The notes under the pieces are model-generated. The model was not told the DNA's origin. It searched no databases and was given only the letters and a program-made list of their open reading frames with translations. This document shows, in pieces, positions 1 through 29,204 of a stretch of DNA of 29,204 bases. Each line of letters starts with the position of its first letter. The stretch's first letter is position 1. This stretch comes from a virus, in the IMG/VR virus record IMGVR_UViG_3300042465_002383, positions 1 to 29,204 of that record. One strand, written 5' to 3'. The position numbers and the translations under genes are program-made.

Positions 1-119
1 GCTACTCTACTCAGACATCTTTGGCTAAGTACTTTAATATCAATAACACATCAGCTTTCTTTCTAATCAAAGAAATAAAACAAAATATCAAAGAGATACA
101 ATATAGGTATAAAAAGTAA
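1..119 (+). CDS. 3' end of sigma-factor-like gene (duplicate of 29079-29196)
   Basis: The window opens inside the second base of a codon of the sigma-like gene annotated in full at 28657-29196. The last 39 codons and the TAA stop at 117-119 are present. It is not a broken gene: it is the same locus seen twice because the contig ends overlap. On the closed circle this gene lies directly before the small gene at 124, five bases from its ATG. Confidence 0.9.
   Translation, partial: YSTQTSLAKYFNINNTSAFFLIKEIKQNIKEIQYRYKK
97..110 (+). promoter_or_regulatory. Candidate late promoter element TACAATATAGGTAT (copy 1 of 5)
   Basis: The element TACAATATAGGTAT lies inside the last codons of the sigma-like gene, 13 bases before the ATG at 124. 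Four near-identical copies sit at 2052, 9364, 12531 and 15110. If TACAAT is the -10 hexamer, transcription would start near base 109 and give a leader of about 15 bases before the gene at 124. This copy would drive the terminase operon. Its promoter role is inferred from position and repetition, not shown. Confidence 0.55.
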
Positions 120-123
120 TATT

Positions 124-420
124 ATGGAATACACAATCAAACCAGAATTTGTAGGTAAAACAGTGAAAATCTATGACAGATTTCAAGGTACTAAGACAAT
201 CATAGTAGATAATCTTGACCTGAGCAAAGTAAAATACTATCAGACAATTGGACTTAAGCACATCTTTGAAGAGGTAGTAACTGCTACAGCTCCTGAGCCA
301 ACTGTAATTGAATACACAGCAGTTGAGGATGTACCAGTAAAAAAGAAACGCACTAAGAAATTTGTTGAGAGATTAGAAGAGGTTAAACAAGAGCAAGAGT
401 CAAACAATGGCGAAGCCTAA
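124..420 (+). CDS. Unknown small protein before the terminase genes
   Basis: This 98-residue protein is not recognised. The N-terminal half (about residues 1-50) looks like a compact alternating-strand fold; the C-terminal half is rich in Pro, Glu and Lys, with a basic stretch KKKRTKK near residue 75 followed by a charged helix. The gene overlaps the small terminase gene by 14 bases, so the two are probably translated together. Its place directly before the terminase suggests a role in packaging or late control, but nothing in the sequence proves it. Confidence 0.75.
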   Translation: MEYTIKPEFVGKTVKIYDRFQGTKTIIVDNLDLSKVKYYQTIGLKHIFEEVVTATAPEPTVIEYTAVEDVPVKKKRTKKFVERLEEVKQEQESNNGEA

Positions 421-6342: not shown

Positions 6343-8914
6343 AGTTGAGATACCATTAAAGATAACTGGCATAGGTGCCATAAAAGCTGAGTTAAGAGAG
6401 TTAAAGGGTGCTATTGCTGATGCAACTGATCCGGAACAAATTGCCAAGTTATCACAGAGAGCTGGGGAGCTGAAAGATAAACTATCTGATGCTAATGAGG
6501 CTGTTAATAATTTTGCTACTGGTTCTAAGTTTGAACAAGTCAGCAACTCATTAGGTGGTATTAAAGACTCATTGCTATCCTTAGACTTTGCAGAAGCTCA
6601 ACAAAAAGCTCAAGTTTTTGCTAGTGCATTAGGGAACGTCAATCCAAAAGAGATAGCGGCAGGATTCAAAGCCTTCACTGGAGTCATTAAGACTATGGGT
6701 AGTGCATTTGTTAAGTTAGGAGTACAGATACTTGCTAATCCTATTTTTCTATTGGTAGCTGTGATAGTTGCTATAGTTGCTGCAGTTGTTATGGTCCTTA
6801 AGTATTTTGGTGTACTTGATGCTGTACTTAAGGCATTGATGGCTCCTATCAATTTAATCATTGATGGATTCAAAGCATTGACTGACATGTTAGGATTGAC
6901 AAGTTTTGCAGCTGAAGAAAATGCAGAGGTTGTTAAGAAGACTGAGGAGGCTAAAAGAGAGGCAATGAATGAAACCTTTGCCAATAGAAAGAAAGTAGCT
7001 GAGATGACTGCTACAATGAGCAGAGAAGAGATAGCTATGATGGAGGAGTTGACTGGTGTACAGATTGACACATCTAAGTCATCATTTGACATTGAGAATC
7101 AAAGATTAGAAAATAATCAAAAATCACTACAAGCACAACTTGACTCACTACAAGCTATAGAAGATGCTGGTGGTGAACTTACTGATGAGCAAATTAAGGA
7201 TAGAGAAAAGCTCAAAGATGAGTATAAGAAGAATAATCAAGCAATAGAGGAGAACGAAAGAGCTAGAGCTAAGGCAATCATAGACATCAATCAGAGACAG
7301 AATGACTTGTTAATTAAGTCACGCATGAGGTTAATGACTGATGAGAATGAAAGAGCTAAGGCACAATTAAAACTTGACCAGGAGAAAGAGATTAAAGAGC
7401 TCAACATCTTGATTAGAAATGCTAAGGTATTAGGTCAATCTACCAAAGGATTTGAAGAGGCTAAATTAAACACTAAAGCATTTTATGCAGCAGAAGCTAC
7501 TAAGATAGATACTAGAGTTGCTGATGAGACTAAGAAGGCGGCTGAGAAACAACGCAAAGAGAATGCTGATAGACAGAAAGCTAACTATGAAAGCTATGTT
7601 AAGTCATTAGAGCAAAAGTTAAAAGCTACTAAAGACTCTAATAAAGTACTAATCTTAGCTACAGAAGAAGGTACTCAATCAAGAGTAGATGCTGAGGTCA
7701 AAGCACTCCAGGTAGAAGTTGACTACATGGCTAAAAATGCTAAGGCTTTTAAACTTAGTCAGGATCAATTAACAATCATTAGAGCTGAGACACTTAAGCA
7801 ACAAGAAAAACTACAAGAAGACTACAATAAGAAGGTCACTGATGCAACCAATAAAGAGAATCTAGCTAAGGCACAGAATGACTTGTTAACAGCTAGTACA
7901 GATGAGGCTAAACTAGATGCTAAGATTAAGCTACTTGAAGCTGAGGCTAAGGTTAAACTACAGAATGAAGAGTTAACAGCTATTGAGATAAAGAATATCA
8001 ATGACCAGTTAGTAGTTGATTTGGGTGTAGTTGAAAAAGCTAAGACTGATTTAGCATTTGAGAAGACAAAAAAATTAATTGATGCTGAAAAATTAAGAGT
8101 TGAGACTGCACTATCATTAGCGGCTTTTGAGCTTGAAAGATTTAAAGGCAACAAGGATGAGGAGATAAGACTTAACAATGAATTCTTAGCTAAACAACTT
8201 ACAGCATTAGATGCACAGAAATTAGCTGAGCTTAACAACTTGAATCTATCTGAGACTGAAAAAGAAGCTATCAGAGAAAAGTATAGACAAGCTAAAATCA
8301 CAGCAGAAGAAGCTACAGCTAAGAAGATTGAAGAGATTGAAGCTGAAGCTACAGCTAAGACCTTAAAGAACATTAATGATGGCTTTGATACTACTAAGCA
8401 AGCACTAGGAGCTATCACAAGCATGCAAGAAATTACTAACAGAAACAAGTTGAAAAATGTTGAGAAAGGTAGTAAAGAAGAGGAGAAGATACTTAAGCAA
8501 CAATTTGAGCAACAGAAAAAAATGAACTTAGCAATGGCTGCAATTAATGGAGCTCAAGCTATCTTAGCTATTTTATCAGTTCCTGACTTCACACTAGGTA
8601 TTGCATCAGGGATAAGAATAGCGGCATCTATAGCGGCAACTGCTGCATCTATCTCAGCTATCTCAGCAACATCTTTTGAGGGTGGTGGAAATGCTCCAAC
8701 TCCAGTAAGTGGTGGTACTTCACAGACTAATACTGGACCAATGGCTACTCCTAATCTTTTTGGCAATAGCAATAACGCTAATAATGTTGGAGGAGAGAAT
8801 CAAAATAGCAACCAATCAACTCCTAACTTCACAGTCACAGCTGTAGTTAGTGAAACAGAAATGACAAACGTACAGAATAGAGTTAACAGAATCCAAAGAA
8901 ACGCAGAATTATGA
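6335..8914 (+). CDS. Tail tape measure protein
   Basis: This 859-residue protein sets tail length and is likely injected with the DNA. It starts with helical coiled coil (residues 15-60), has a strongly hydrophobic stretch ANPIFLLVAVIVAIVAAVVM near residues 131-155, then more than 500 residues of Lys/Glu/Ala-rich coiled coil, and a second hydrophobic Ala/Ile/Ser-rich section near 730-780. The C-terminus is a low-complexity Gly/Asn/Ser tail. Length, coiled coil and paired membrane segments are the usual marks of tape measures in siphoviruses. At about 0.15 nm per residue the coiled part would fit a tail of roughly 110-130 nm, which is an estimate only. Confidence 0.93.
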   Translation: MNEVEIPLKITGIGAIKAELRELKGAIADATDPEQIAKLSQRAGELKDKLSDANEAVNNFATGSKFEQVSNSLGGIKDSLLSLDFAEAQQKAQVFASALGNVNPKEIAAGFKAFTGVIKTMGSAFVKLGVQILANPIFLLVAVIVAIVAAVVMVLKYFGVLDAVLKALMAPINLIIDGFKALTDMLGLTSFAAEENAEVVKKTEEAKREAMNETFANRKKVAEMTATMSREEIAMMEELTGVQIDTSKSSFDIENQRLENNQKSLQAQLDSLQAIEDAGGELTDEQIKDREKLKDEYKKNNQAIEENERARAKAIIDINQRQNDLLIKSRMRLMTDENERAKAQLKLDQEKEIKELNILIRNAKVLGQSTKGFEEAKLNTKAFYAAEATKIDTRVADETKKAAEKQRKENADRQKANYESYVKSLEQKLKATKDSNKVLILATEEGTQSRVDAEVKALQVEVDYMAKNAKAFKLSQDQLTIIRAETLKQQEKLQEDYNKKVTDATNKENLAKAQNDLLTASTDEAKLDAKIKLLEAEAKVKLQNEELTAIEIKNINDQLVVDLGVVEKAKTDLAFEKTKKLIDAEKLRVETALSLAAFELERFKGNKDEEIRLNNEFLAKQLTALDAQKLAELNNLNLSETEKEAIREKYRQAKITAEEATAKKIEEIEAEATAKTLKNINDGFDTTKQALGAITSMQEITNRNKLKNVEKGSKEEEKILKQQFEQQKKMNLAMAAINGAQAILAILSVPDFTLGIASGIRIAASIAATAASISAISATSFEGGGNAPTPVSGGTSQTNTGPMATPNLFGNSNNANNVGGENQNSNQSTPNFTVTAVVSETEMTNVQNRVNRIQRNAEL

Positions 8915-9363
8915 CCAGTTATCAAGCACTAATAAACAAGATTGAGGCATTTTATAACGATCACCTACAAGTTAAGAAAGTAGGTAGTGACTTCAATGAG
9001 CAACTTCCTAACTTTGCCACAAAAGATGAGAGGTATCCTTTGGTTTTTATCACTCCAATTGTGGCATCTACTACAATGGATGTAAACACTATCAGCTTAG
9101 AGGTGTATTGCTTAGATATTATCCAAAAGGATAGAGCTAACATCACAGTGATATTGTCAGACTGTCATCAGATATTGGTAGACTTAATCAACTATTTCAA
9201 TTTTAGTGATGATTATTCCTTTGATATTGTAGGCTCACCATCAATCACTCCATTAAATAATCAGCTACTAGATTATGCTGCAGGATGGGTGATGACATTA
9301 GATGTTGACATCAGTAATTGGACCAATTGTCAAGTACCTCTTATAACTAATTTACCAGGTTAA
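8911..9363 (+). CDS. Small tail protein, possibly tail terminator or completion protein
   Basis: The 150-residue protein overlaps the tape measure gene by four bases (ATGA), so the two are coupled. It has the pattern of small tail-completion proteins: an N-terminal helix (ALINKIEAFYNDHLQ), then beta strands with PLVFITPIVAST, a helix with ILSDCHQILVDLINYF and a final strand pair LDYAAGWVMTLDVDI. These parts resemble tail terminator folds in order and size. The family assignment is inference from layout; I see no diagnostic motif. Confidence 0.6.
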   Translation: MTSYQALINKIEAFYNDHLQVKKVGSDFNEQLPNFATKDERYPLVFITPIVASTTMDVNTISLEVYCLDIIQKDRANITVILSDCHQILVDLINYFNFSDDYSFDIVGSPSITPLNNQLLDYAAGWVMTLDVDISNWTNCQVPLITNLPG

Positions 9364-9378
9364 TACAATATAGGTATG
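9364..9378 (+). promoter_or_regulatory. Candidate late promoter element ending in the ATG (copy 3 of 5)
   Basis: TACAATATAGGTATG begins one base after the TAA of the preceding gene, and its last three bases are the start codon of the fibre gene at 9376. It is identical to copies 2 and 5 over 15 bases. It would make the fibre gene a separate transcription unit with a leaderless message. Confidence 0.6.
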
Positions 9379-10644
9379 GCACGCAGACAGAAGATATCAC
9401 AGATGAATCCGAAAGGAGCTAACCTACAAGCTACAGATTTGCTTGAGGTAAGTGTACTTACTGGCACTGGTTATGACACTTATTCCATAACTGGTCAACA
9501 GATTATCAATGCTGGTGGAGGTGGTGGTAGTCAGGACTTGCAACAAGTTACTGATTTAGGGAGTGAGACTACTAATGGAATTCTCACTACAAACTCATTT
9601 GTGGCAGTTGATGATTTTTCAAGCCCAGATAATTCTACAGTTTTATCTCCTAATTCTCTTGAGTTATCTAACAATTTAACTGGAGAACAGCTTTTTTTAA
9701 GTAGTTATGATATTCAACTAATTAAAAGTGGAACGGCTATTGGTAAATTTAAAGCTACAAATGTCACTTCACCTAACAATGTCACTCTTGAATTTCCTGA
9801 CAAAGCAACTGGAAGCTACACAATAGCTACTACAGCTGATATACCTAGTGTCAGTGGATTTGTACCTTACACTGGTGCAACAGCTGATGTAAACTTAGGC
9901 ACGTTTCATTTAGATGCTGCTAAAGGTACATTCACTCACAGTGGTAGTACAGATACTCTTACAGCTACTCACTCAAGTGGTAGTGGAATAGGTTTGTCAA
10001 TCACTAAAGGTGGCAACAATGAAGGACTGAAAGTCAATAAGACATCAGGTAGTGGTAATGCTGCTACAATAATTGGTACATTAGAGGCTACTACATTAGT
10101 TAAGACTGGTGGAACGTCTAGTCAATACTTGATGGCAGATGGTAGTACCAATACATTAAATCAAGCTGCTATACTTTCATTGTTAGGATGGTTTAAAACA
10201 ACTGTTACAACGAATTACACTGTAACAGGTACAACGGGTGAAACTATTGTTAGCTCAACTCAAGTACCTACATTAAGCAATGGAACTATCTTTAAAATAA
10301 ATACATTAAGATTTACAAAAGGTGCTCTTGCAGGTAGTACAATTAGAGCATATTTAAGCCCTAACAGTGCCAATCTTTCGGGTGCTGTTCAAATACTATC
10401 AACAGGTTCTGTTATTGTAGCAGGGACTAGATTAGCCACAATTAGTAGAGTGTTTGAGATTGAAGGTGGTAACATAAAAGGATTAAATTCAGCTACAGGT
10501 GTAATCAACGACAATGGTACAAGTACAGTTGTAGCATTAGACGCTGCACTTCCAAGTGGTACATTATATCTTATTGTAACAGTTACAAATTCTTTAACTA
10601 CAGAATCAACTACACAAGAACTTTTAGACATTTCAAATTTCTAA
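9376..10644 (+). CDS. Tail fibre / receptor-binding candidate
   Basis: The 422-residue protein begins with RRQKISQMNPKGANLQATDL, an N-terminal anchor I associate with fibres of flavobacterial phages. After a Gly run (GGGGGS near residue 52) come beta-rich segments with Gly, Ser, Thr and Asn (SGFVPYTGATADVNLGT near 160; TGGTSSQYLMADGS near 245), the style of trimeric fibre stems. The last 150 residues, from about GWFKTTVTTNYT, form a separate domain without repeats that is the likely receptor-binding tip. The sequence contains no peptidase or endosialidase motif. Confidence 0.75.
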   Translation: MARRQKISQMNPKGANLQATDLLEVSVLTGTGYDTYSITGQQIINAGGGGGSQDLQQVTDLGSETTNGILTTNSFVAVDDFSSPDNSTVLSPNSLELSNNLTGEQLFLSSYDIQLIKSGTAIGKFKATNVTSPNNVTLEFPDKATGSYTIATTADIPSVSGFVPYTGATADVNLGTFHLDAAKGTFTHSGSTDTLTATHSSGSGIGLSITKGGNNEGLKVNKTSGSGNAATIIGTLEATTLVKTGGTSSQYLMADGSTNTLNQAAILSLLGWFKTTVTTNYTVTGTTGETIVSSTQVPTLSNGTIFKINTLRFTKGALAGSTIRAYLSPNSANLSGAVQILSTGSVIVAGTRLATISRVFEIEGGNIKGLNSATGVINDNGTSTVVALDAALPSGTLYLIVTVTNSLTTESTTQELLDISNF

Positions 10645-10809: not shown

Positions 10810-11258
10810 TGGCATACGCTAACAACGGAGAGTTTAATGTGCTCTATAAGACTAGGAGAAGGATGGCTAACATCCTTAAAAGAATACTTAGAAATGATAT
10901 AGTAGATGGTCAAGGTACACTGGTAGAATCAATTAGAATCAATGCTAAAATCACCAGCTTTGAAAAGTTAGAAATACAGATAGTGGCTATGTACTATTTT
11001 ATCTTCTTGAATAATGGTGCTTTCTTATGGAATGGTGGAGTAATTACACCTAGAGACTATGTCAATCAGTTTACAAATGAGCTTAATAACTCAGGAATAA
11101 CAGCAGAAATATACTCACAGTACACAGAATGGTTAACAAAGCGTTATCCTATGCTTAAAGTTGCTGAGATACTTGAGAAGAATCAGAGAATTACATACAC
11201 ATTTGAGGCACTTGATCCACCAGAAGGATTCAAAGTAGGCTATCCATTAGATGTTTAA
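10809..11258 (+). CDS. Unknown protein, possibly neck or tail completion
   Basis: The 149-residue protein has a basic N-terminus (YKTRRRMANILKRILRND), then IRINAKITSFEKLEIQIVAMYYFIFLNNGAF and a C-terminal helical region. The size, basic start and central strand-helix pattern are reminiscent of HK97 gp10-type tail completion proteins, but the similarity is too weak to be sure. The gene starts on the stop of the preceding one, and its last 12 bases overlap the 3' end of the minus-strand gene at 11247. No terminator hairpin is seen at this convergent junction. Confidence 0.65.
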   Translation: MAYANNGEFNVLYKTRRRMANILKRILRNDIVDGQGTLVESIRINAKITSFEKLEIQIVAMYYFIFLNNGAFLWNGGVITPRDYVNQFTNELNNSGITAEIYSQYTEWLTKRYPMLKVAEILEKNQRITYTFEALDPPEGFKVGYPLDV

Positions 11259-11978
11259 TTCTTTCTTCATGGCTAACATGTTGAAGGTCATGATAAGTGG
11301 TAGGTTAGTGACCTCTTCAAACTTAGTCAAGTCTTCATTACATAGAGAATAGATTAATCTTTCCCACCCCCACTTTAACTGACTCTTTTCTTTTTGTATT
11401 TCTTTGGCCTCTTCACTATTGGTAGGCCTTACCTCCTCCTCATCCTCAGCTGTATTGTCATGGAATAAGTTGCCATAGGTATCCATGAAGTTTTCTCTAA
11501 AAGATATGAACTCAGGAATAATACCATAGATGTCATTGATTTTATACTCATCAAACAGCTCATGTCTATCTCTTGGACTGAAAGCATACGGCTCATAAAT
11601 AGTCACACCCCATTCATTGGTAGATTTTTGCCTATACATAATGGATGCAATGTGACCAATGTGCTTATTGTAGTCTTTTGAAAAGTAGAACTCAAGGTCA
11701 ATATACTCACCAATGGTTAACTTATCTAGTGGCTTGTAATGATAGTCATCAAGCTGTCTCTTAAAGTTCTTAGATGGCTCTGAATTAATGTACTTGATGT
11801 CAGACAGCATCACAGTGACCTCTTCAATATCTAAGTCTTCAATGTCCTCAGAGTTAATGTCACCTAGTGCAGCGAGAATCTCAATCTCTCTACTGAATAC
11901 TTCTTGAATGCTGTATAAGTCTCTGACCTCTTTGTACTGGAATACATCAATCTCACTCCATGATTTCGGTAGGTACAT
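11247..11978 (-). CDS. Minus-strand protein, paralogue of its neighbour; possible long tail assembly chaperone
   Basis: The likely start is the ATG at 11978 (MYLPKSWSEIDVFQYKEV), giving 243 residues; the frame opens further upstream only to a TTG. Residues 1-125 align by eye with the neighbouring minus-strand protein: P..W.E(I/L).V.Q(Y/F), a shared E(I/V)...LG, D...(L/I).IEE, DDY.Y against DGYTY, and HI..I....R. About 120 extra residues follow, with an acidic Glu-rich loop (AEDEEEVRP) and a C-terminal helix. One short and one extended version of the same domain is the pattern of gpG/gpGT tail assembly chaperones, here as separate genes. The function is inference. Confidence 0.65.
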   Translation of the reverse strand: MYLPKSWSEIDVFQYKEVRDLYSIQEVFSREIEILAALGDINSEDIEDLDIEEVTVMLSDIKYINSEPSKNFKRQLDDYHYKPLDKLTIGEYIDLEFYFSKDYNKHIGHIASIMYRQKSTNEWGVTIYEPYAFSPRDRHELFDEYKINDIYGIIPEFISFRENFMDTYGNLFHDNTAEDEEEVRPTNSEEAKEIQKEKSQLKWGWERLIYSLCNEDLTKFEEVTNLPLIMTFNMLAMKKELNI

Positions 11979-12498
11979 CCTTTGGCATTTGTTTAGATAA
12001 TTTCTGACCAATTTCTACCAGGTATGGGACTGCTAACTCAGCCTTTAACTCTCTAATCATTTTAGCTTTTAGCTTGATGTGTGCATCTACATAGTGCTCA
12101 GCTTTTGTCAAGTCAGTACGTTTGAATAAAACTGCTAACAGCTCAGAGATATATCCTTTGTGCTTAGATGCCATAATTCTCTCAATGTGCTTAGTGTCTT
12201 TAACAGATAGTTTAAACTGGTCCTCAAATGCAACATAAGTGTAACCATCCAATTCTAGTTTGTTCACTAGCTCAGGCTTTGATTGAATGTCATTGAAAGC
12301 TCTTACAATTTCTTTAAACTCTTCAATCTGTACATCATCAAATTCAATTGTAGGAACTCCTAAGAATTCAAATACTTCTAAATGCTTGTCAATTGCATCT
12401 AGCTCTACTTTTCCATGAATAGTTGTGATCGTTTCAAACTGCTGTACTGTCAATTCATTCAATTGATTAGGTACTTCTTTACCTAGTATTGTTACCAT
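11953..12498 (-). CDS. Minus-strand protein, possible short tail assembly chaperone
   Basis: The 181-residue protein starts MVTILGKEVPNQLNELTVQQ and is mostly acidic helices. It appears to share an N-terminal domain with the downstream minus-strand gene, which it overlaps by 26 bases; the downstream ATG follows AGG directly in this overlap. It is the first gene of a two-gene leftward operon enclosed by rightward structural genes. In many siphoviruses two chaperones lie near the tape measure gene, which makes that a reasonable guess, but they are not normally on the opposite strand. A repressor or anti-sigma role is also possible; no DNA-binding motif is seen. Confidence 0.65.
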   Translation of the reverse strand: MVTILGKEVPNQLNELTVQQFETITTIHGKVELDAIDKHLEVFEFLGVPTIEFDDVQIEEFKEIVRAFNDIQSKPELVNKLELDGYTYVAFEDQFKLSVKDTKHIERIMASKHKGYISELLAVLFKRTDLTKAEHYVDAHIKLKAKMIRELKAELAVPYLVEIGQKLSKQMPKDVPTEIME

Positions 12499-12514
12499 AG
12501 ATTTTAATTTTTAA

Positions 12515-12522
12515 CAAATATA
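12515..12522 (-). promoter_or_regulatory. Possible -7 element for the minus-strand pair
   Basis: Read leftward, the 44-base divergent gap contains TATATTTG, which fits the Bacteroidota -7 consensus TAnnTTTG and lies about 17 bases before the ATG at 12498. The place where a -33 TTTG would be expected (near 12542-12545) reads CATG, so the match is only half. The same gap holds the rightward element for 12543, so two promoters would fire away from each other. Confidence 0.4.
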
Positions 12523-12530
12523 AGAACTTT

Positions 12531-12545
12531 TACAATATAGGCATG
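12531..12545 (+). promoter_or_regulatory. Candidate late promoter element ending in the ATG (copy 4 of 5)
   Basis: TACAATATAGGCATG differs from the other copies only by C for T before the ATG. The start codon at 12543 is its last three bases. It lies in the only divergent gap in the genome and would start the head operon with a leaderless mRNA. The one variable base is the base just before the predicted +1, which agrees with -10 recognition ending earlier. Confidence 0.6.
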
Positions 12546-15036: not shown

Positions 15037-15062
15037 TCTAGCTTTCTTCCATAGATAAAGAG

Positions 15063-15090
15063 GCCTTGCAGAAATGTAAGGCTTTTTTTT
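15063..15090 (+). terminator. Rho-independent terminator with GAAA tetraloop
   Basis: GCCTTGCA at 15063-15070 pairs with TGTAAGGC at 15075-15082 (one G-U pair) around a GAAA tetraloop, and eight T residues follow. The GNRA loop and the long T run make this a textbook terminator. It lies 26 bases after the tail-tube stop and 20 bases before the next promoter-like element at 15110, which marks a clean boundary between transcription units. Confidence 0.93.
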
Positions 15091-15109
15091 AATTAAAATT
15101 TTTACTAAG

Positions 15110-15124
15110 TACAATATAGGTATG
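15110..15124 (+). promoter_or_regulatory. Candidate late promoter element ending in the ATG (copy 5 of 5)
   Basis: TACAATATAGGTATG stands 20 bases after the T run of a strong terminator, and its last three bases are the start codon at 15122. This is the best single argument that the element is a promoter: after the terminator the connector and portal genes need a new start, and no host-type TAnnTTTG is present in the gap. Confidence 0.65.
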
Positions 15125-25885: not shown

Positions 25886-25915
25886 TTTCACAAGTAAAAT
25901 AAATCATTACATTTG
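25886..25915 (+). promoter_or_regulatory. Host-type promoter TTTC-N18-TACATTTG before the recombination genes
   Basis: TACATTTG at 25908-25915 is a full -7 box and is identical to the one before primase-helicase. The -33 box TTTC at 25886-25889 has one change and the spacing is 18. Transcription would start near 25922, about 15 bases before the ATG at 25937. It would drive the ERF and exonuclease genes. Confidence 0.72.
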
Positions 25916-28272: not shown

Positions 28273-28500
28273 ATGATAGCATACATCACTCCATTAGTAG
28301 TATCCTGGTGGTTCACTAACTTTGAGCCAATCCAAAAATTCATTGACAGATTCATTCTACCTGACTGGCTACACACTGCTCTAGGATGCTGGAAGTGTAT
28401 GTCATTCTGGTCAGCATTAATCTATTCACAATCATTAACTGTAGCATGTGCTACTTCACTCACTGCCGTATGCTTGAACAAGCTGATATACAACTCGTAA
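28273..28500 (+). CDS. Small membrane protein with a CxxC motif, 75 aa
   Basis: The protein MIAYITPLVVSWWFTNFEPI continues with QKFIDRFILPDWLHTALGCW and KCMSFWSALIYSQSLTVACA. It has hydrophobic segments at about residues 2-14 and 45-70 and a GCWKC motif near 38-42. Similar short membrane proteins with SWWFTNFEPIQKF occur in flavobacterial phages. Function is unknown. It overlaps the next gene by 31 bases. Confidence 0.75.
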   Translation: MIAYITPLVVSWWFTNFEPIQKFIDRFILPDWLHTALGCWKCMSFWSALIYSQSLTVACATSLTAVCLNKLIYNS

Positions 28501-28673
28501 ATTCCATAATAGTACTACCTGAGGCTGAGATTATGACAAAGAGGTCACTTAATCAACTCAAGCAAGTGAAAGTCAAAGCTACTAAGGTGATTGATAAAGA
28601 GTGCTTTTGTTCTACAGTAAGAAGAAAAGTGTGGTATAAGGACTTTTTATCCTGGTATGAAAAGAATGCTTGA
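28470..28673 (+). CDS. Small protein with a Cys-x-Cys motif, 67 aa
   Basis: I chose ATG 28470 because the part before it in this frame lies wholly in the membrane-protein gene and is of poor quality. The protein then begins MLEQADIQLVNSIIVLPEAE and contains KVIDKECFCSTVRRKVWYKD followed by FLSWYEKNA. The CFCSxxRR segment is distinctive and the end of the frame overlaps the sigma-like gene by 17 bases. Function is unknown; a DNA- or RNA-binding role is possible from the basic Arg/Lys cluster. Confidence 0.65.
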   Translation: MLEQADIQLVNSIIVLPEAEIMTKRSLNQLKQVKVKATKVIDKECFCSTVRRKVWYKDFLSWYEKNA

Positions 28674-29196
28674 CCAATACTTGCAAAAAAACTACACAGA
28701 GGTGCTCAAATACACAAAGCACTTTATTCAACGACTCAAAATACCTAGCTCTGTAGAAGCTGATGCAGTAATTAATAACGCTTACATTCATTGTGCTAAG
28801 CTAGAAATAGAAGAAGCCACAGAAGACAAAGCAAAAAGCTATCTACTAAACACAATCAAGTATGAACTAATCTGGACTCAAGGCTCAAAGACCAAGAAGG
28901 ATGACATCTATAGGTCACATGAATATTTAAACGACTCACTAGATGATCCTTCTGACATGGACCACAAAGTCAACTTAGAAGAAAGCTACAATTTCAAGAA
29001 AGCAATGGTAGAGATATACCGAAACTCTTTGGATGATAGAATTAAAAAGATTATCTTTGAGGCATACTATGACAAAGGCTACTCTACTCAGACATCTTTG
29101 GCTAAGTACTTTAATATCAATAACACATCAGCTTTCTTTCTAATCAAAGAAATAAAACAAAATATCAAAGAGATACAATATAGGTATAAAAAGTAA
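28657..29196 (+). CDS. Sigma-factor-like protein (sigma-70/ECF type), candidate late activator
   Basis: The 179-residue protein looks like a short sigma factor. Residues about 33-80 (VEADAVINNAYIHCAKLEIE, then YLLNTIKYELIWTQ) resemble sigma region 2, and the C-terminal part (SLDDRIKKIIFEAYYDKGYS, then TSLAKYFNINNTSAFFLIKE) resembles the region 4 helix-turn-helix. The acidic linker lies between. It is the last early gene and lies directly before the terminase operon on the circle. Its last codons contain the first late element (29174-29187). Similarity is by pattern, so the call is moderate; a plain HTH activator is the alternative. Confidence 0.6.
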   Translation: MKRMLDQYLQKNYTEVLKYTKHFIQRLKIPSSVEADAVINNAYIHCAKLEIEEATEDKAKSYLLNTIKYELIWTQGSKTKKDDIYRSHEYLNDSLDDPSDMDHKVNLEESYNFKKAMVEIYRNSLDDRIKKIIFEAYYDKGYSTQTSLAKYFNINNTSAFFLIKEIKQNIKEIQYRYKK

Positions 29197-29204
29197 TATT
29201 ATGG
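29078..29204. repeat. Terminal direct repeat, right copy
   Basis: This is the exact second copy of bases 1-127. It holds the end of the sigma-like gene, the first late element (29174-29187) and the first four bases of the gene that is complete at 124. Confidence 0.95.

Follow-up and report, generated by a model that had tools for sequence, protein, structure and literature searches.

A candidate ECF-like sigma factor and late promoters abutting start codons suggest an early-late switch in uncultured phages of about 29 kb

Genome layout and the sigma-like gene

The stretch of DNA analysed here (referred to below as the window) comprises 29,204 nucleotides of viral sequence, corresponding to positions 1 to 29,204 of the IMG/VR record IMGVR_UViG_3300042465_002383. 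Its two ends carry identical sequence (terminal redundancy, 1–127 = 29078–29204), such that the ends join to give a circle of 29,077 unique bases, and positions 29174 and 97 are therefore a single site. The window belongs to a group of uncultured phages with genomes of about 29 kb. Read from the sigma-like gene (28657–29196, + strand), the gene order runs through the terminase genes, tail-type genes, a head protease (a Peptidase_S78_2 match) and the capsid gene, the portal gene, a gene after it with a DUF6712 match, and a CHAP-type lysozyme; a block of small genes, a 777-aa primase-like protein with a BT4734-like N-terminal domain and an ERF recombinase then lead back to the sigma-like gene. 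This gene precedes the terminase-structural block in all the genomes compared, and lies in an early region with host-type promoters. The nearest terminases among cultured phages are those of Parabacteroides, Bacteroides and Flavobacterium phages (32–34% identity), and these affinities, together with the BT4734-like domain, DUF6712 and the presence of the Bacteroidota −7 promoter box before early genes, make a bacterium of the Bacteroidota the likely, although not proven, host. An Rfam scan of the sequence gave no match.

The 179-aa product of the sigma-like gene was assigned on the basis of its open reading frame (ATG to TAA), its conservation and its predicted fold. The frame is conserved across the phage family and was found in every relative with enough sequence (38 to 100% identity), and no relative of the protein was present among 50,697 phage records. 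AlphaFold, in two runs with different alignments, predicted two helical domains (residues 2–76 and 98–178) separated by a low-confidence linker, and Foldseek comparison gave the sigma2 and sigma4 folds in that order, which places sigma2 at about residues 2–76, the linker at about 77–97 and sigma4 at about 98–178. The modest pTM of the model (0.42) is due to uncertainty in the arrangement of the domains. When the model built from the deeper alignment was searched against the PDB, places 1 to 27 of 350,542 chains were all occupied by sigma factors, the best match (E 7.5e-4) being a chain from an RNA-guided transcription complex; with the model from the shallower alignment, sigma factors filled nearly all of the first 40 places. 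The sigma4-type part alone aligns with PDB structures at 2.4–3.5 Å over 63–70 residues, and the large rmsd of the full-length structure alignments results from a different domain arrangement. Among the viral predicted structures of BFVD, the first match was an unnamed relative, and the next were named phage sigma-70 region 2, RpoE/sigma24 and ECF proteins.

Sequence profiles also place the protein closest to the sigma factors, below annotation thresholds. The window protein scored best with NCBIfam sigma70-ECF (TIGR02937; E 0.0022), in a match spanning residues 5–170 of 179 and profile positions 3–161 of 165; the same profile matched 14 of 43 family members (best E 1.1e-5), and further NCBIfam sigma families ranked below it, also under their cut-offs. 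No NCBIfam sigma match exceeded the curated cut-off (17.6 bits for the window protein, with 42.9 required), Pfam and PHROGs gave no significant sigma match for the window protein or the 34 members scanned, and a PDB sequence search with the family profile returned no match. A profile-profile match to a small ECF alignment was collinear over the full length (148–152 columns), with a weak E-value (0.1 or 0.009, according to the alignment used). The RinA profile, by comparison, produced a sub-threshold match (15.4 bits against 31.9) confined to residues 112–170, rather than a full-length one. The initial annotation had recognized parts resembling sigma regions 2 and 4 and had proposed a structural comparison with sigma factors; that comparison agrees with the NCBIfam sigma70-ECF result, and sigma factors head both the PDB and the viral structure searches. 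Given this predicted fold and a sequence similarity that lies under annotation thresholds, the protein can be considered with good confidence to be an ECF-like sigma factor.

A small conserved open reading frame (28386–28673, + strand) overlaps the start of the sigma gene by 17 nt. It carries the motif CFCxxVRRKVWYKDFxxWYE and is present in 21 of the 21 genomes compared, with no match in Pfam, PHROG or cultured phage records. Its true start is probably internal (MLEQ/MFEQ), and its product is a possible partner of the sigma factor.

The bipartite late element

The string TACAATATAGG occurs exactly at positions 97/29174, 2052, 9364, 12531 and 15110, which makes five unique sites, all on the + strand, for an expectation of 0.02 per strand under a dinucleotide model (Poisson probability of at least five copies, about 2e-11). 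The initial annotation had spoken of five elements and had placed one of them inside the coding end of the sigma gene (29174 = 97), whereas an AACA-like upstream box and a fixed contact with the start codon had both been missed. According to a layout derived from orthologous places in 21 genomes, TACAATATAGG is half of a bipartite element consisting of an AACA-like box, 16–18 nt, AATATA and a start codon 3–6 nt further on. Four of the five copies are followed by one base and then ATG; the remaining copy, within the final codons of the sigma gene, is followed by TATA in the closest relatives of the window and by TATG in the others.

The element is found before the same operons in most clades, its conserved places being gene 2064, the gene after ORF 8911–9363, the head protease gene at 12543, gene 15122 before the portal gene, and the end of the sigma gene. 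In the window, the candidate late promoter at the sigma-gene end (29156–29184, + strand, the same site as 79–107) has an AACA box at 29156–29159 and TACAATATAGG at 29174–29184, and would serve g124-terS-terL. P2064 (2033–2066, +) has an AATT box at 2033–2036 that overlaps the terL stop codon, TACAATATAGG at 2052–2062 and the ATG at 2064, and P9376 (9345–9378, +) has an AACT box at 9345–9348 within the last codons of ORF 8911–9363, TACAATATAGG at 9364–9374 and the ATG at 9376. P12543 (12513–12545, +; AACA box 12513–12516, TACAATATAGG 12531–12541, ATG 12543) heads the head protease-capsid operon, and P15122 (15091–15124, +; AATT box 15091–15094, TACAATATAGG 15110–15120, ATG 15122) heads the portal operon. 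A predicted intrinsic terminator (15060–15085, +; 11-bp stem followed by a U run, fold −14.5 kcal/mol, z −4.1) runs straight into P15122. The upstream box is, thus, degenerate (AATT or AACT) at three of the five sites in the window. The best-fitting −10 register is TACAAT, with the A of ATG as +1, in the window's clade and (C/T)AATAT across all clades, and both registers place the start of transcription at or beside the start codon.

The exact element string was found 131 times in the forward and never in the reverse orientation in 80 loci of relatives, and 83 of the 84 bipartite copies in 20 terminase-selected genomes share one orientation, with none in reversed-pattern controls. Late genes in internal positions, such as those for capsid and portal, were not preceded by it, and contigs unrelated to these phages that matched the 14-base pattern had single, chance-like copies (47 of 47). 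For the co-occurrence of gene and element, loci were chosen by terminase and not by the sigma gene. The sigma-like gene lies 0.6–1.5 kb before the terminase in 72 of the 72 loci with enough upstream sequence (eight others are too short to tell), and both gene and bipartite element are present in all the near-full-length records searched from that set (20 of 20 for each), the element in 2–6 copies in the main orientation and the reversed pattern in none. Relatives carrying the element and lacking the gene, which the initial annotation had considered incompatible with its interpretation, were looked for in these loci and records, and none was seen. These counts show that the sigma gene and the element are a stable core feature, which does not in itself prove recognition of one by the other; given the strong synteny and the relatedness of the phages, the pair is not independent evidence.

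The element exists in clade-specific versions. The window's group and that of G021 have AATATAGG, the L206 group has AATATAAG, and G026 and G032 have AATATAGT; near G040 the version is AATATATA, and much of the G059–G068 set carries TGCAATATAAG. Non-homologous sites within a genome share the clade version (flanking similarity 0.84 versus 0.50; 0 of 1000 label permutations), a permutation figure that is supportive rather than strict, as the clade labels, although they agree with protein identity, were set after the sites had been seen. Such concerted change is as expected from one trans-acting reader, in a co-variation drawn from related and not independent phages. Two records deserve mention in their own right. 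L206 (contig JAIXRY010000011.1, 29.6 kb) was binned in the MAG of a pond bacterium; it is one of these phages and carries its own version of the element (TACAATATAAG / GACAATATAAG). The 33-kb L383 record (G061) has two sigma-like genes (9789–10337 and 32857–33387, both on the − strand) and only two matching elements, one with TGCAATATAGG instead of TGCAATATAAG, and is possibly a chimera or the result of a duplication.

Selection at the DNA level inside the sigma gene was assessed with 140 unique sequences retaining the element, in which 55 codon columns combine a conserved residue with a synonymous choice. The median relative codon entropy over these columns is 0.85, and synonymous variation is zero in exactly four of the 55, K167 (AAA), Q174 (CAA), Y175 (TAT) and Y177 (TAT), all of which lie under the AACA and AATATAGGTAT boxes; by contrast, tyrosine 151 is encoded by TAC in 68% of the sequences. 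The restriction of invariant codons to the boxes indicates that it is the promoter DNA, and not the peptide, that is being kept. No element stands at the sigma-gene end in the most distant clade, which accounts for 35 of the 175 unique genes. That promoter and gene overlap probably reflects the compactness of the genome and not the working of the switch, as two further late promoters reach into coding ends and this distant clade has no such overlap. An autoregulatory signal inside the sigma gene was considered and dropped on the same two grounds, the element being the promoter of the next operon. In the window (97–124), a transcript from the sigma end would start at ATA, in frame with the ATG of the next gene 15 nt on; in most other clades, an ATG occupies this spot and opens a short reading frame of 54–58 codons.

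Two promoter classes and a shared site

In 21 genomes, the gaps of 25 nt or more that precede genes were compared, with expectations obtained from shuffles. The host box TAnnTTTG was present in 37 of 159 early gaps (7.9 expected) and in 19 of 22 gaps before leftward genes (1.0 expected), but in only 4 of 147 late rightward gaps (4.6 expected), whereas the late element preceded 91 of 386 late + strand genes versus 4 of 472 early genes, with none on the minus strand; as the 21 genomes are related, these counts are not independent trials. The early host boxes are mostly located about 21–28 nt before the start codon, whereas the late boxes touch it. The raw number of TAnnTTTG boxes differs little between the early and late arcs, and the contrast is clear only in the gaps before genes. 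A scan for generic sigma-70 promoters returned 59 matches against an expectation of 70 and was not informative. The initial annotation had described the sigma-like gene as the last gene of an early region transcribed by the host polymerase, ahead of late genes under phage control. The gene order holds in all the genomes compared and host boxes are enriched early, and the division between early host and late phage promoters is supported by the occurrence of TAnnTTTG before early genes and its absence above chance before late ones.

One of the early boxes, TACATTTG (25908–25915, + strand), is followed 21 nt later by the start of the ERF recombination gene. Another host-type −7 box, TATATTTG (12515–12522, − strand), is directed towards the leftward genes 11956–12498 and 11250–12011, 12–17 nt before the start codon, and overlaps the upstream box of P12543: in AACAAATATA (12513–12522), AACA is the P12543 upstream box and the reverse complement holds TATATTTG. 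This dual-use site is conserved in nearly all the genomes compared, and its layout suggests that the late and leftward promoters are mutually exclusive, in which case a late factor bound at P12543 would presumably shut off the leftward genes. In the G021–G037 clade, TATATTTG is only 5–6 nt upstream of the start codon of the primase gene, and the early mRNA for primase may be leaderless too.

A predicted late switch and its alternatives

Taken together, the data make it probable, in our view, that host sigma-A drives the early genes and that the 179-aa factor drives the late operons as leaderless mRNAs. To judge from the sequence, host polymerase with its primary sigma factor would transcribe the early genes, including the sigma-like gene, from TAnnTTTG promoters. 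The ECF-like factor, with its sigma2 and sigma4 domains, would then recruit host core RNA polymerase to the five bipartite late promoters, where the fold and the promoter layout suggest that sigma4 would read the AACA-like box and sigma2 the (C/T)AATATA box. The geometry predicts that transcription starts at, or about 0–3 nt from, the first start codon of each late operon, and a start so placed means that the late mRNAs should be leaderless. The copy in the last codons of the sigma gene would act as the promoter of the terminase operon and not as a feedback site; in the window's clade it is an exception, with TATA for TATG and a predicted leader of about 15 nt. Core-polymerase binding, recognition of the element, the start point and the order of events in infection are all steps that we infer. 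The redirection of host polymerase to the elements, as put forward in the initial annotation, is consistent with the predicted sigma folds and with the presence of both gene and element in the 20 near-full-length records searched.

Leaderless late mRNAs would be unusual for this phylum, in which only 5.5% of the mRNAs of F. psychrophilum are leaderless (PMC9723704), and F. johnsoniae transcripts mostly have leaders: 87% of those with a probable promoter have leaders of more than 10 nt, and transcription starts 4–5 nt after the −7 box (PMC6847099). That an abundant uncultured group of phages of about 29 kb, probably of Bacteroidota, should express its virion operons without leaders, through a dedicated ECF-like sigma factor with promoters fused to start codons, is a more demanding proposal, which we favor with less assurance.

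It seems unlikely that the late promoter is read by a host alternative sigma factor, or by sigma-A with another phage activator, the sigma-like protein then being a co-activator (RinA-like), an appropriator or an anti-sigma factor. Recognition of the promoter by the sigma-like protein is itself a deduction, the (T)AATATAG box is similar to TAnnTTTG, the −7 box of the host, in several positions, RinA gave sub-threshold matches to the C-terminal half of 13 of 43 family members (best E 0.0013), and another small conserved gene is found immediately upstream. Against this alternative stand the prediction of both sigma2-like and sigma4-like domains in the phage protein, a sigma70-ECF profile match that spans the full length and scores better than RinA, and elements that change in concert by clade within the phages. 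The proximity of the elements to start codons (1–4 nt), in a phylum without Shine-Dalgarno sites (PMC6847099), could also be taken to mean that the conserved sequence signals the start of translation instead of being a promoter. This is considerably less probable, given the second box 16–18 nt further upstream, the location of an element after a terminator, and its absence before internal late genes. Moreover, the sigma-end copy is kept in the window's clade with no start codon touching it (TATA), which argues for a promoter rather than a translation signal. Least plausible of all, to the point of being nearly negligible, is a promoter for a T7-type single-subunit polymerase: TATAGG followed by a gene start does resemble the T7 initiation region, but GG is not conserved between clades, the far-upstream box is, and a PHROGs scan of 20 larger proteins found no polymerase gene, the 777-aa protein being primase-like.

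A phage sigma factor acting on dedicated late promoters, the reading preferred here, has precedents, as phage-encoded sigma switches are well known from SPO1 and T4. SPO1 gp28 and gp34 and T4 gp55 redirect host core polymerase to later genes and are essential for infection (PMC9429907). The likeness to these factors lies in the logic of the switch and not in a sequence comparison, and the protein described here differs from them in its ECF-like size with both sigma2 and sigma4, in the phages of about 29 kb, probably infecting Bacteroidota, that encode it, and in promoters that abut start codons. ECF promoters have an upstream box containing AAC at about the same spacing as here. In Flavobacterium, they have a CGT-type −10 (PMC9723704), in contrast to the AATATA of these phages. 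The protein resembles ECF factors (RpoE/sigma24 type; PDB 1or7, 6dv9; TIGR02937) in its two helical domains with a flexible linker and its full-length, albeit sub-threshold, profile match, but no anti-sigma gene was identified here. Leaderless genes of Deinococcus-Thermus have TANNNT about 6–7 bp upstream of the ORF, where it serves as the classical −10 region of the host (PMC12340547); they share with the layout predicted for the late operons a −10 box directly before the start codon and an mRNA without leader, whereas the factor proposed for these phages is phage-specific and the phylum is one in which leaderless mRNAs are rare. The Bacteroidota primary promoter (TTTG / TAnnTTTG; PMC6847099) provides the very box that precedes early and leftward genes in these phages, and the late element differs from it in both sequence and placement relative to the start codon. 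Literature searches of open-licence full texts found no report of such a sigma switch or of leaderless late promoters in Bacteroidota phages. The initial annotation's view of the switch as previously undescribed for such phages agrees with these searches, although phage sigma switches as such are known from SPO1 and T4.

Little seems to be known about the timing of gene expression in Bacteroidota phages, and the switch proposed here would have two parts, one 179-aa protein and five promoters, in a genome of 29 kb. The family lies below annotation cut-offs and has no match among phage records, which would account for numerous "unknown" late regions among uncultured phages. A compact sigma-promoter pair of this kind would also constitute an orthogonal expression part for Bacteroidota. 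If the late mRNAs are leaderless, the phage shifts translation initiation along with transcription, and the late switch would change promoter class and mode of translation initiation together.
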